From assembly GCA_944340905.1 (NCBI GenBank), contig CALVLT010000018.1, forward strand, positions 1-43,451: DNA of 43,451 nucleotides. Reading direction: 5' to 3'. A program made the translations under genes and the position numbers. Every line of letters begins with the position of its first letter. The first letter of the stretch is position 1. Shown here in pieces: positions 6,135 to 43,068 of this stretch. The notes under the pieces were generated by a model, which was not told the DNA's origin, did not search any database, and saw nothing but the letters and a program-made list of their open reading frames with translations. The stretch comes from an uncultured Clostridia bacterium. Its GTDB lineage: Bacteria > Bacillota > Clostridia > Christensenellales > Borkfalkiaceae.

Positions 6135-6473
6135 TGGTTTTCTCCTGTTGTGATTGTTACCTGTATTGCCATGGTTGTTGACCGTCTGGCGGATCATTCC
6201 TTCCGCCTCGCTTTGGGGGCTTGCCCTCCCTGTGCAAGGGAGGCAGCAGGCATCCTTGCATGGTACTGCGTCATTCAGAGGAGCCGAAGGCGACGAAGGA
6301 ATCCCCTGATAGGACGACACCGAGCACAATCCCCCCTGTCCTTGAGGGCTTCCCCCCTTAAAACGCTATCGCGTGTTAAAGGGGGCGGAACAGGCTCCCT
6401 CTCCGAGGGAGACTTTCCGTGTTTTCACGCCCGTAAGACAACGTAAGGGGGATTGCTCCGCTACGCTCCGTTC

Positions 6474-6535
6474 TGCTCGCCGCCGCAGGCGGCACACGAG
6501 CCTCGAAGAGGCGAAGTTATGACGATTGGCGAGCA
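6474..6535. repeat. Small folded element B, copy 1
   Basis: An outer stem TGCTCGCC (6474-6481) pairs with GGCGAGCA (6528-6535). It encloses two inner hairpins, GCCGC/GCGGC (6482-6493) and GCCTC-gaa-GAGGC (6500-6512), then the conserved single-stranded stretch GAAGTTATGAC. The same sequence recurs inverted at 15207-15268, and a diverged copy with a different but still pairing outer stem lies at 39502-39550. The sequence flanking it on the left (about 6442-6473) is also shared with the 15.2 kb copy. Confidence 0.75.
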
Positions 6536-6542
6536 TGGGGAA

Positions 6543-6836
6543 ACGTCATTCAGAGGAGCGGCGTAAGCCGCGACGAAGGAATCCCCTCGCAGAATGTGCA
6601 ATCCCCCCTGTCCTTTGGACATCCCCCCTTAAAACGCTATCGCGTGTTAAAGGGGGCGGAACAGGCTCCCTCTCCGAGGGAGCTGTCACCGAAGGTGACT
6701 GAAGGAGTACTCCTTCCGCCTCGCTCCGCTCGGCACCTCCCTCTTGGAGGGAGGCTGTTCGCGTTTTTGTGCCCGTAAGACAACGTAAGGGGGATTCTTC
6801 GCTCCGTTTCACTCCGCTCTGAATGACGGAAACAGG
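6543..6836. repeat. MITE-like inverted-repeat unit
   Basis: The left end reads GTCATTCAGAG, then purine-rich sequence ending GAATCCCCT. The right end reads AGGGGGATTCTTCG and ends CTCTGAATGAC. The ends are imperfect inverted repeats of about 40 nt around roughly 200 nt of other small repeats. Fragments of the same ends recur at 31123-31220 and 39440-39650. No transposase gene is present, so this would be a non-autonomous unit. Confidence 0.6.
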
Positions 6837-6840
6837 CTAC

Positions 6841-7177
6841 TGTCCTTGCTAAAATGATGTGGCAAAAGGCGTCACTGCGTTATGCCTTTTGCTCCCCTGT
6901 TTGCTGCTCACGCAGCTTTCGCGGAAAGGTGAATGCGCGGGCGTTATAACTGTTGCCACTGCCCGCGCAGAGGGTGAGGGTTGCGTCATGCCGATAAGCC
7001 CTGCGGGCTTTCGGCGCACGCCCGAACTGAGGTTTTTGCCATCGGTAGGGCAAAAACCGTGACCGAATTCCGGCCTACCCGTGTGAGACAAACCAAACGC
7101 AGAGCCGCAGGCGAACGTTGGGTTTTCTTTCCCCTCACGACTTTTTTCCGCGTCAGTTCACGGAAAAACGTGTGAAC
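6841..7177 (+). repeat. Multi-hairpin element A, copy 1 (candidate structured RNA or folded mobile element)
   Basis: Oriented so that it ends against the 3' end of purO. Hairpins in order: GCAAAAGGC/GCCTTTTGC (6862-6870/6884-6892); GCTGC-tcac-GCAGC (6903-6916); GCGCGGGC/GCCCGCGC (6935-6942/6961-6968) with loop containing CTGTTGC; AGCCC/GGGCT (6997-7009) inside a GCCGA/TCGGC stem; GGTTTTTGCC/GGCAAAAACC (7031-7058); AACCAAACG/CGTTGGGTT (7091-7124) enclosing GCC/GGC; and a terminal TTTTTCCG/CGGAAAAA (7143-7168) with loop CGTCAGTT. Related copies lie at 14830-15203 and 41029-41262. No coding capacity is evident. Confidence 0.8.
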
Positions 7178-7897
7178 TTATTTCGTGAATTTATTGATCA
7201 TCACGCTCTCTTCCTGCCATGTTCTGAGCGTGATGGCGCGGCAGTAGAGCGAGATTTTGTTGTCGGCGTCCAGATTTTCCCAGATCTCCCGCGCAAACTC
7301 GTGTACGTCGTTGGGAATGAGCACGCGCTCCGGCTCCCCCTCGAAGGTGGGCAGCGGCGAGCCGTCCCTTTCGTAGGTGTGCAGGAAGTGCCCCGTGCCG
7401 TTGACGGGTTCGTAGTCGAAGGTAAATCGGTTGCACTTTTCCCCCCTGCCGTCCGCACTCTTGAGAATGGACATCTCATAGGTGAACGCGCTCTTTTTCA
7501 GGTGGATGATGCCGCTGATGCGCGGCGTGTAGTTGGGCGCGTCCGGCTCGAACGTGCGCGTCTTTAAGGCGCAGCGGAAGCACTTGCCCATCTTCAGGTA
7601 TTCCTCGATGGTGTCCGTCTGGTCGCCGTTGGTGACGATGATGTCGTCCCCCACCCGCTTGACGGGCGAATAGATGATGAGGGAAGGATCGGAGACCTTG
7701 CTCTCGTCAAAGGGATAGATGGTGACGTTCTCCCCCTCCTCCACAAAGACGCGGTTGCGGGAATTTTCGCTCCTGCCCATGATGAAGTAGGCGAACATCG
7801 CCTTTCTCCCGTCCGAGGACTTGCCGATGACGATGCCGCGCCCGGGATAGGAATTGCCCGCAAGCGCGCGCTTCATGCTCTTTCTGACGTAACCCAT
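7178..7897 (-). CDS. purO: IMP cyclohydrolase, PurO type
   Basis: A 239-residue protein resembling the archaeal-type IMP cyclohydrolase family (PurO), which closes FAICAR to IMP, the last step of de novo synthesis. Support comes from the N-terminal segment NSYPGRGIVIG, the following FAYFIMGRSENSRNR, and length. The genomic logic agrees: the local PurH lacks its cyclohydrolase domain, and this gene sits inside the purine operon, 3 nt after the purN stop. The start ATG at 7895-7897 is the first in the frame and is tightly coupled to purN. The family is an NTN-hydrolase-like fold unrelated to the MGS domain of PurH. Immediately downstream lies element A copy 1, whose terminal hairpin probably acts as, or disrupts, the terminator. 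The exact catalytic residues are not identified here. Confidence 0.87.
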   Translation of the reverse strand: MGYVRKSMKRALAGNSYPGRGIVIGKSSDGRKAMFAYFIMGRSENSRNRVFVEEGENVTIYPFDESKVSDPSLIIYSPVKRVGDDIIVTNGDQTDTIEEYLKMGKCFRCALKTRTFEPDAPNYTPRISGIIHLKKSAFTYEMSILKSADGRGEKCNRFTFDYEPVNGTGHFLHTYERDGSPLPTFEGEPERVLIPNDVHEFAREIWENLDADNKISLYCRAITLRTWQEESVMINKFTK

Positions 7898-14367: not shown

Positions 14368-14829
14368 ATGGCTGCACTGGGCGTTATCACGCTGATCCTG
14401 TTGGTATTTGTGCTCATTTTCTACGCATATCTCGCCAACTACTCCGAGCGCGACGTCTCCTTTTTCCTGAGTGTCGGGCTGATCATGCTCGTCATGAACC
14501 TCTGCACGAATGCGGGCGGAACTTTCGGGCTTGCATGGCTGTACCTCGTCATCGCCGTGCTCTTTCTGGGGCTGGGTTTCGCGGTGGACGCGCACGAATC
14601 GGTGGAATTCTACAAGTCCATCGGGCCTTGGCTCAAGGCAACTTTTTCGGACGCCGCGCTGCTCGGCTGGAAAGCGCTCTCGCTGGTGGTGTTCCCGGCG
14701 GGCATGGTGTGTTTCTTTGTGATGTACAAAGATAAACCTGCCTTGGCGCGTGTGTGCGGCAAGTGCGGGCTGTGGGGACTGCTCCTGTGGGCGATCCTGC
14801 TGTGGGCGATTTTGGGATTGGCATTATAA
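14368..14829 (+). CDS. Small polytopic membrane protein of unknown function
   Basis: 153 residues with five predicted membrane segments (about residues 3-24, 31-49, 53-74, 96-118, 131-151) and short loops; no recognised domain. The ATG follows a GGGGGG site about seven bases upstream and an exact consensus promoter, so it is a genuine and probably strongly expressed gene. It is monocistronic: element A copy 2 begins within ten bases of the stop, and its terminal hairpin may act as terminator. A short Cys pair (VCGKCG) lies between TM4 and TM5. Confidence 0.8.
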   Translation: MAALGVITLILLVFVLIFYAYLANYSERDVSFFLSVGLIMLVMNLCTNAGGTFGLAWLYLVIAVLFLGLGFAVDAHESVEFYKSIGPWLKATFSDAALLGWKALSLVVFPAGMVCFFVMYKDKPALARVCGKCGLWGLLLWAILLWAILGLAL

Positions 14830-15203
14830 AAATTCACACGTTTTTCCGCAAACTGACGCGGAAAAACGTCGTGATGGGAAAGACAACCCGCGGGCACGCC
14901 TTTGGCTGACCGCGGGTTTTCTCACACGGGTAGACCCCGCGTTCGGTCACGGTTTTTGCCCTACCGATGGCAAAAACCTCAGTTCGGGCGTGCGCCGAAG
15001 CCACACCGTGGCTGTCGGCATGACGCACACCCTCACCTCTCGGCGGCGATAAATGGCAACAGTTATAGTCTCGCCGCCTTCACTCTTTCCGCATAAGCTG
15101 CGTGAGCAGCAAACAGGGGCGCAAAAGGCATAACGCAGTGACGCCTTTTGCAACGTAATTGTAGCAAGGGAAACTCTGCTTGCGTCATCATGATAGCAAG
15201 GAC
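14830..15203 (-). repeat. Multi-hairpin element A, copy 2
   Basis: Inverted relative to copy 1, so that its terminal hairpin again faces a gene 3' end (stop at 14829). In plus coordinates the terminal stem is CGTTTTTCCGC/GCGGAAAAACG (14839-14868); next AACCCGCGG/CCGCGGGTT (14885-14918) with inner GCC/GGC; the conserved GGTTTTTGCC/GGCAAAAACC (14951-14978); AGCCAC/GTGGCT (14999-15013); GGCGGCGA/TCGCCGCC (15042-15078) with a loop that keeps CTGTTGC on the minus strand; and the GCAAAAGGC stem near 15120-15150. Stem sequences differ from copy 1 but pair. The outer end carries a local duplication of a CCTTGCTA motif. Confidence 0.8.
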
Positions 15204-41028: not shown

Positions 41029-41262
41029 GATTGTGCCCTTGCTACAATCACTCGCGCAAGCAAAATCGCATTTTGCGCCAGCGCCCTACATTTGCGCATA
41101 CCTGCGCTTTTGCGGAAAGAGTGAGCCGCCGCGGGTATACTGTTGCGAAAACAGCGGCGGCGAGAGAAAACCAATTGTCAGCCGCCTTGCGGCGTGCAAT
41201 GGGTTGTCTCTTAAAATCGGAAGATTTTCTCCCGTCAGTTCGGGAGAAAATCTCCGAGCGGG
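41029..41262 (+). repeat. Multi-hairpin element A, copy 3 (shortened)
   Basis: Lies between dnaK and dnaJ, again with its terminal hairpin against a gene 3' end (dnaK). Hairpins: GCAAAAT/ATTTTGC (41060-41076); GCGC/GCGC (41094-41107); CCGCCGC/GCGGCGG (41126-41160) with loop CTGTTGC; AACCAATTG/CAATGGGTT (41169-41205) around GCCGC/GCGGC; terminal AGATTTTCTCCCG/CGGGAGAAAATCT (41222-41253) with loop TCAGTT. The roughly 120-nt middle part of copies 1 and 2, with the GGTTTTTGCC hairpin, is absent. Confidence 0.75.
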
Positions 41263-43068
41263 TTATTGGTGGAATTCCGTATCCCCGCTGTCCGTGCCGC
41301 CCTGCGCACCCTGTGCGTTCTGCGCATCGGCAGCCTGCTGCTGATACAGCTTCTGGAAGATGGGCTGGACCTTCTGCGAGAGCGTCTCGACCGCCGCGTT
41401 GAACTTCTCCTCGTCGTCCGCCTCCAGCTCCTTCTTCGCCTCCTCGACGGCGGCACTGAGCTCATTTTTCTCTTCCTCGGTGAACTTGTCGCCGCTGTCC
41501 TTCATCGTCTGTTCGACGGAGAAGATGAGGCCGTCCAGCTTGTTGCGCGCCTCCACCTTGGACTTGCGTTTCTTGTCCTCTTCGGCGTATTGCTCCGCCT
41601 CCTTGACCGCCTTGTTGATCTCGTCCTCGGAGAGGTTGGTGGACGACGTGATGGTGATATCCGTCGACTTGCCCGTGCCAAGGTCCTTTGCCTCGACGTG
41701 CACGATGCCGTTGGCGTCCACGTCAAATGTGACTTCGATCTGCGGAATGCCGCGGGGCGCGGGCGCGATGCCCGTGAGCATGAACCTGCCCATCGTCTTG
41801 TTATCGCGGCAGAATTCACGCTCGCCCTGCAAAATGTGAATTTCAACGCTCGTCTGATTGTCCGCCGCCGTGGAGAACACCTGGCTCTTCTTGACGGGGA
41901 TGGTCGTATTTCTGTCGATGAGCCGCGTGAACACGCCGCCCAGCGTCTCGATGCCGAGCGACAGGGGCATGACGTCGAGCAGCAGGACGTCCTTGACTTC
42001 GCCCGTCAGCACGCCGCCCTGAATGGCTGCGCCGATGGCGACGCACTCATCGGGATTGATGCCCTTGAACGGCTCCTTGCCCGTGATCTGTTTGACCTTT
42101 GCAACGACGCAGGGAACACGCGTCGAACCGCCGACCAGAATGACCTTGTCGATATCGTTGTAGTTGAGGCCGGCGTCCTTCATGGCAAGGCGCATAGGCT
42201 CCGCCGTCTTTTCCACGAGGTCGGCGATGAGCGCCTCGAACTTCTGACGGGTGATCTCCATATCGAGGTGCACGGGGCCTGCGTCCGTCATGGAGATGAA
42301 GGGCAGCGAGACGGTCGTGGACATGGTGCCCGACAGCTCGATCTTCGCCTTCTCGGCGGCCTCCTTCAGGCGCTGCATCGCCATCTTGTCCTTCGTCAGG
42401 TCAACGCCGTGCGCCTTTCTGAACTCTTCCGCCATGTAGTCCATGAGCTTTTTATCGAAGTCGTCGCCGCCCAGCATGTTGTTGCCGTTGGTGGCGAGCA
42501 CCTCGAACACGCCGTCCGAAATTTCCAGAATGGAGACATCGAACGTGCCGCCGCCGAGGTCATAGATCATGACCTTGCTGTTTTCCTTTTCCTTGTCCAG
42601 CCCGTAGGAGAGCGCTGCCGCCGTCGGCTCGTTGATGATACGCAGCACGTTGAGGCCCGCGATCTTGCCCGCGTCCTTGGTCGCCTGGCGCTGCGCGTCG
42701 GTGAAGTACGCGGGGCAGGTGATGACGGCGTCCGTCACCTTGCTGCCCAGGTATGCCTCCGCATCCGCCTTGAGCTTGGAGAGGATCATTGCGGAAATTT
42801 CCTGCGGCGAATACGACTTGTCGTCGATCTTCACCTTATAGTCAGACCCCATCTTCCGCTTGATGGAGATGACCGTCTTTTCGGGGTTGGCGACCGCCTG
42901 GTTCTTCGCCACCTGTCCGACGACACGTGTGCCGTCCTTCTGGAACGCGACGACGGAAGGCGTCGTGCGCGAACCCTCTGCGTTGGGAATGACGACGGGC
43001 TCGCCGCCCTCCATCACCGCCACGCAGCTGTTTGTTGTACCAAGATCGATCCCGATTACCTTTGCCAT
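41263..43068 (-). CDS. dnaK: Molecular chaperone DnaK (Hsp70)
   Basis: 601 residues. The ATPase domain starts [18 protein letters not shown], with signature [14 protein letters not shown] and [11 protein letters not shown]; the substrate-binding domain begins near the linker [18 protein letters not shown] and ends in a helical lid. The C-terminus is Gln/Asp-rich and lacks a clear EEVD tail, as usual in bacteria. AAGGAG precedes the ATG, 45 nt after the grpE stop. The stop is about ten bases from the terminal hairpin of element A copy 3, which may reduce read-through into dnaJ. Confidence 0.98.

Follow-up and report, generated by a model that had tools for sequence, protein, structure and literature searches.

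In the pneumococcus, BOX elements are built of the modules boxA-boxB-boxC. The description of BOX in Streptococcus pneumoniae drawn on here presents it as modular and variable in length, with a strong predicted fold and a presence also within transcribed regions, and 36 of its copies supply the stop codon for the 3' end of a gene (PMC3049150). In the same partial account, MITEs are small, non-coding and strongly folding, with inverted-repeat ends (PMC3049150). A REP, in the excerpted description used, is a palindrome of 20-40 bp beside a GTAG or CGTC tag (PMC3733652), and REPIN/BIME elements, in the portion of the source covering them, are extragenic, non-autonomous and present in many copies and inverted pairs, with compensatory changes in their hairpins (PMC3116915).

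Here we describe a hairpin-packed non-coding repeat that is present in dozens of copies, tightly placed between genes of the gut genus Gallimonas. It is like REPIN/BIME in the traits just given for those elements, and differs in that each arm has five hairpins over about 200 bp, against one 20-40 bp REP (in the same excerpt, PMC3733652), and in that stop codons and ribosome-binding sites border its outer ends. It also differs from REP/REPIN with its RAYT, since 9 of the 13 carriers identified here have no Y1 gene. It resembles BOX, as well as RUP and SPRITE, in its modularity, variable length and strong predicted fold, a likeness of the descriptions, whereas a mirrored two-arm form and exchange of sequence at cross-species sites are absent from the BOX description as that source excerpt gives it (PMC3049150). 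The traits listed for MITEs apply too; in contrast to them, neither a target-site duplication nor a parent transposase was found here, and at its ends the stems vary and the loops are conserved, in place of conserved terminal DNA. By analogy, our best reading is that the repeat may work like REPIN/BOX-type repeats; we do not place it within REP/REPIN, most carriers being without RAYT. The explanation we prefer, with a probability of roughly 0.6, is a repeat of the REPIN/BOX/MITE kind, interspersed, non-coding and non-autonomous, with a full form of about 440 bp lodged between a stop codon and the ribosome-binding site or start that follows it; the hairpin arms would be recognised in trans. A literature search, mostly outside subscription journals and only partly aimed at the repeat, found no paper on this Gallimonas repeat.

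Single arms and the full mirrored element

The window, that is, the whole 43,451-nucleotide stretch of DNA analysed, contains three copies (c1, c2 and c3) at the places and with the common hairpin order that the original prediction had claimed (Table 1). That prediction had not given the strand of c2, which is minus, so that its 5' end is at 15203 and its terminal hairpin lies at the low-numbered end. The parts, read along the plus strand of the original prediction, are named M0 (an AT-rich start), M1, M2, M3, M5 and M6 (the terminal hairpin). The M4 insert of c1 and c2, about 115 bp between stems 3 and 5, is missing from c3 and from short copies. By eye, M4-like forms also occur alone in other spacers and within other repeats. 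At its inner end c2 has what seem to be the remains of an M0-M1 of a second subtype. At its outer end c1 touches the stop codon (7178-7180) of a minus-strand gene with a match to IMP cyclohydrolase below the cut-off (67.4 bits; cut-off 150), c2 ends a few nucleotides past the stop codon at 14827-14829, and c3 directly adjoins the dnaK stop codon (41263-41265).

Table 1. Positions of the three copies and their hairpins in the window
Feature	Positions	Strand	Remarks
Copy c1	6841..7177	+	one arm (M0-M6) with M4 insert
c1 M1	6862..6892	+
c1 M2	6903..6932	+	with conserved GCGGAAAGGTGA
c1 M3	6935..6968	+	loop TATAACTGTTGCCA
c1 M4	6974..7088	+	different two-hairpin repeat between M3 and M5, limits approximate
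c1 M5	7090..7128	+
c1 M6	7135..7177	+	terminal hairpin, loop GTCAGTT
Copy c2	14830..15203	-	one arm with M4 insert
c2 M6	14832..14874	-	terminal hairpin
c2 M3	15042..15078	-
c2 M1	15121..15151	-
Copy c3	41029..41262	+	one arm without M4, dnaK-dnaJ spacer
c3 M1	41054..41084	+
c3 M3	41125..41161	+
c3 M5	41162..41211	+
c3 M6	41217..41258	+	terminal hairpin, variant with TCGG/CCGA at base

All three are single arms, without a second arm matching our search model R1 (M3-M6) beside any of them, and arms of this kind commonly make up one half of a mirrored element. In the full form, of about 440 bp, five hairpins (M1, M2, M3, M5 and M6) make up an arm, and two such arms mirror each other around an AT-rich centre; the arms run outward from the centre and the M6 hairpins are the outer ends. 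Five complete units of 438-461 bp, drawn from the tightest outward pairs, read gene, M6-M5-M3-M2-M1, centre, M1-M2-M3-M5-M6, gene, and a sixth tight outward pair (426 bp) has a rearranged left arm. Among the matches listed, the terminal hairpins of neighbours less than 2.5 kb apart point outward in 21 pairs, inward in four and in tandem in 17, so the REPIN trait of two inverted hairpin units joined in one is found here, in these pairs and in the five complete forms. Two subtypes are told apart by the M3 loop, AAGCCC in A and TGTTGC in B; among the matches listed, 111 of the 178 arms are B, 29 are A and 38 unassigned. In one genome (G017) tandem arms of subtypes A and B alternate. In our reading the full element gave rise to single arms (c1-c3 among them), to terminal hairpins that stand alone and to arms in tandem.

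Other repeats lie close by. Two further dispersed repeats, at 6330-6530 and 6590-6830 of the window, the one with GAATGACGG ... CCCCTAAGACAACGTA and the other with GGCTCCCTCTCCGAGGGAGC..., occur twice in succession next to c1 and also next to other copies elsewhere. Another structured repeat (TCGCAAAAAAGATTTG... AGAGGAGGAACGAGCG...) sits within M1, M2 or M6 of several copies (L002, L012, L016 and L017), and by eye its stems differ on both arms between copies.

Covariation and the probable folded strand

Stem 3 reads GCGCGGGC/GCCCGCGC in c1, GGCGGCGA/TCGCCGCC in c2 and, at full length, GCCGCCGC/GCGGCGGC in c3 (first reported as CCGCCGC/GCGGCGG), with the loop CTGTTGC kept in all three copies. 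The terminal stem and its loop GTCAGTT are also as first described, and the terminal stem of c1 has one C-A and one T-C mismatch. Compared with shuffles, the fold energies give z values of -2.85 (c1), -6.55 (c2) and -6.56 (c3). The alignment took ten copies of the home genome that have no M4, including c3 but, on account of their insert, neither c1 nor c2; it was made by MAFFT without structure and then folded. The compensatory stem changes seen in the three copies, which were to be sought in further ones, are present: 31 of 52 pairs differ on both sides, against 20.0 in shuffles, none of 500 reaching 31. Pairing holds in 95.6% of cells, against 78.4% in shuffles, and the covariation score is 0.543, against 0.226, with 0/500 shuffles as high in either case. 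When partners are slid by 1-3 columns, pairing falls to 37.5-53.6%, a control that favours the structure because the structure was derived from the same alignment. The number of further pair types in this ten-copy set is not above shuffles (183/500). Departures from perfect pairing are themselves conserved: of 57 distinct type B terminal hairpins, 53 keep one or two extra bases in the 5' arm, and a purine-G mismatch is retained by 62 of 84 distinct M5 hairpins, both counts still including one partial duplicate (G000 C20 18306).

Covariation, the kept extra bases and the kept mismatch, together with an excess of G-T over A-C pairs that is weaker in parts, back the proposal that the repeat is selected to fold. 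Covariation could arise without selection if template switching or gene conversion between arms kept the palindromes perfect, the repeats being inert. Stems that are nearly perfect and change as blocks would be expected from this, as would the unlike sequences at shared sites (below), whereas such correction should erase the kept bulge and the kept mismatch and should give no strand bias. We consider it improbable, and place it below the host RNA family weighed in the last section.

The bias was counted in stems found under equal penalties for G-T and A-C, and the counts again include the partial duplicate G000 C20 18306. On the strand read from centre to end, stems have G-T in 62 and A-C in 23 distinct contexts (p 3e-5; raw 78:29), while control stems of neighbouring genes have raw counts of 257:247. 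The ratio is 28:16 in stop-side arms and 12:6 in start-side arms, in the same direction and significant in neither. With M1 and M2 added the bias weakens, to 112:83 overall and 56:57 in stop-side arms. These counts lend modest support to the idea that the centre-to-end strand folds on both arms, and an outward RNA would explain them; we infer that the repeat folds as RNA. A promoter at the element centre is only partly supported: a -10-like motif, from a list picked after the sequences had been viewed, lies near the inner end of 65 of 170 arms, against a shuffle mean of 12 and 10 on the other strand.

Host range and candidate movers

A search of the home genome and its relatives, as had been proposed, returned a dispersed repeat. 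There are 34 matches to R1 in the home genome, some overlapping, and 13 of 37 genomes of Candidatus Gallimonas, the home genome included, have matches, with 5-52 in each other carrier. None of the sample's 24 genomes of other families matched R1. Order-wide, R1 matched 3 of 248 sampled genomes, namely our own, one of another genus and one of another family, and the wider model R2 matched 9 of 396, which belong to two families and, counting the home genus, to four of 142 genera, so a distribution confined to the genus was rejected. Matches in the three other genera are weaker, and one R1 match (G284) was not recovered by R2. Those outside the genus retain the core M2-M3-M5, and for several of them a stop codon or ribosome-binding site was seen by eye at the end. 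Across 84,980 species, each represented by a single genome, the terminal-hairpin pattern was found in 48 stretches, of which we estimate that a few are expected by chance; 13 are titled Candidatus Gallimonas, 33 are Clostridia, and two others are Alkalibacterium and a Gemmatimonadetes MAG. Other hairpin elements occupy the same gene joints in further genomes of the genus; their kinship was judged by eye because R1 picks them up weakly if at all. The arms analysed come from nearly all regions of R1's best matches listed, together with further loci, and high-scoring copies are therefore over-represented. From 149 + 53 = 202 rows, removal of duplicates and of rows without a terminal motif left 179, and dropping the overlapping partial G000 C20 18306 left 178 arms, with conclusions unchanged.

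Our results suggest that the repeat moves, and several candidate identities and movers were considered. The original prediction had offered either a large structured RNA family, which it could match to no class, or a mobile element recognised as folded single-stranded DNA. A selected fold is supported, and the repeat is a dispersed one and not a single-function RNA gene; recognition by a Y1 enzyme finds no support in most carriers. In Rfam 15 there are no matches above the gathering score in the window, and a search of one full element and the c3 region at E up to 1 gave only sub-threshold matches of 15.5 and 11.2 bits. No tRNA or tmRNA was found in the window. Integron attC arrays, considered since genes flank the copies closely on both sides, were dropped because the copies are scattered, mirrored and found in either orientation. 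Viral spread was rejected, the terminal-hairpin pattern being absent from viral contigs, and a reverse transcriptase (PF00078, RVT_1) is not supported as mover, being present in 1 of 13 carriers and 6 of 37 genus genomes, which does not place the repeat with group II intron-type elements.

A derivative of a single-stranded-DNA transposon, mobilised by a hairpin-binding HUH/Y1 enzyme of the IS200/IS605 or RAYT type, would account for hairpins with kept extra bases and for inverted pairs as in REPINs, and Y1 genes are present in 4 of 13 carriers, among them the carrier with most matches. Y1_Tnp (PF01797) was found in 8 of 37 genus genomes, and nine carriers are without a match, for example the home genome (0 matches; 84% complete) and G004 (96% complete). 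By eye, the four Y1 loci read look IS200-like, and the hairpins around them look unrelated to the repeat. Since the arms are mirrored, one folded DNA strand should also give no pooled G-T excess, which we infer to speak against this alternative. Recognition by such an enzyme is not supported, and we hold it to be the least probable of the alternatives; if there is a single-stranded-DNA route, it may use another enzyme. A target-site duplication was not seen by eye in 18 two-ended examples. The outer ends are mostly GTTCAC/GTGAAC, and flanks of unoccupied sites are too diverged for base-by-base comparison.

Gene boundaries and sites shared between species

Among the matches listed, 173 arms have at least 200 nt of flank, and in 132 of them the outer end lies at a stop codon or at a ribosome-binding site with its start codon (41 have neither). 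The test asked for an in-frame stop no more than 7 nt from the outer end, or for a ribosome-binding site with a start codon after it, and the distances seen range from -1 to 6 nt and from 9 to 22 nt. It was passed by 118 of 1656 control positions shifted toward the neighbouring genes, which fall mostly inside genes, and by 12 of 162 inner-side positions. Arms occur in both orientations relative to the gene.

Gene joints with and without the repeat were compared at genes that we take, by eye, to be pheS/pheT and ruvC/ruvA (ilvN/ilvD being named in the same way), and at dnaK-dnaJ. Among 30 pheS-pheT loci from 40 matching genomes, 22 have a spacer of 9-19 nt as scored; in G018 the spacer of 453 nt contains a full element, in G011 there is an apparent relic of 65 nt, and G014 and G031 have other insertions; four (G013, G021, G022 and G026) could not be safely parsed. 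Core-gene operons such as pheS-pheT of Ca. Gallimonas merdigallinarum tolerate inserts of some 440 bp that separate a stop codon from the ribosome-binding site after it. The dnaK-dnaJ spacer is 67-181 nt in 23 of 30 loci; it has a type B arm in the home genome (G000), type A in G013, a truncated one in G029 and an apparent relic in G015. At ruvC-ruvA there are arms in G000, G018, G029 and G064, and a 12-nt spacer in G025.

Many sites are shared between species. Among the matches listed, 96 of the 178 arms have an end-anchored homologous flank in common with an arm of another species, in 36 groups, and G000 and G018 alone have 13 shared-site pairs, about one being expected by chance on our own rough estimate. 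The sequences at these sites are no more alike than elsewhere: median identity is 0.676 in 95 shared-site pairs and 0.680 in 566 random pairs from the same genomes (p 0.49), and 27 of the 95 join subtype A with B. The best match of the 96 arms is the ortholog in four, a copy in the same genome in 36 and a non-ortholog in another genome in 56. Shared flanks with unlike sequence indicate that positions are inherited or re-used and that the sequence is exchanged, although shared sites could instead reflect repeated insertion at favoured sites. Site and sequence come apart: species have positions in common, differ in the sequence found there, and preserve the ability to fold.

The number of sites common to species, outer ends that abut stop codons and ribosome-binding sites, and selection on the fold would also fit a host regulatory or processing RNA family, in which structured leaders or trailers at operon joints tune the flanking genes in the manner of a riboswitch or 3' stabiliser. 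Against such a family, the flanking genes, where identified, look like unrelated housekeeping genes (DnaK/DnaJ by a computed match, the others by eye), arms are found in either orientation with respect to the gene, many relatives are without the repeat at the same joint, and the sequence at a site is not inherited. We regard it as unlikely.

Under the preferred reading of an interspersed repeat recognised in trans, a trans-acting factor would recognise an arm in its single-stranded, folded form, on the strand that runs from the centre to the end. That strand would probably be RNA, transcribed outward from the centre. Through recombination, new copies would replace the old at sites already established, and in this way sites would persist as stems turned over. 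We speculate, in a wider form, on a selfish element that docks at gene boundaries, with two outward structured RNAs from a shared centre that are recognised and copying templated onto established sites, where it overwrites residents, the stems being free to change as long as they pair. The odds we give this extended form are low, if better than those of any of the three alternatives above. If the separation of site and sequence holds, the repeat would be a test system for how REPIN-like repeats persist in the absence of a recognisable transposase, and for the question whether RNA or DNA is their acting form.

Two further ruvC-ruvA joints have structures of their own. In G011 (L298:2087-2181) a terminal hairpin stands alone and seems to be what is left of a two-arm element after collapse. 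In G002 (L310:1054-1442) there are repeated hairpin units with a spacing of 176 nt, 90% alike over 143 nt, which look like a divergent relative of the repeat.
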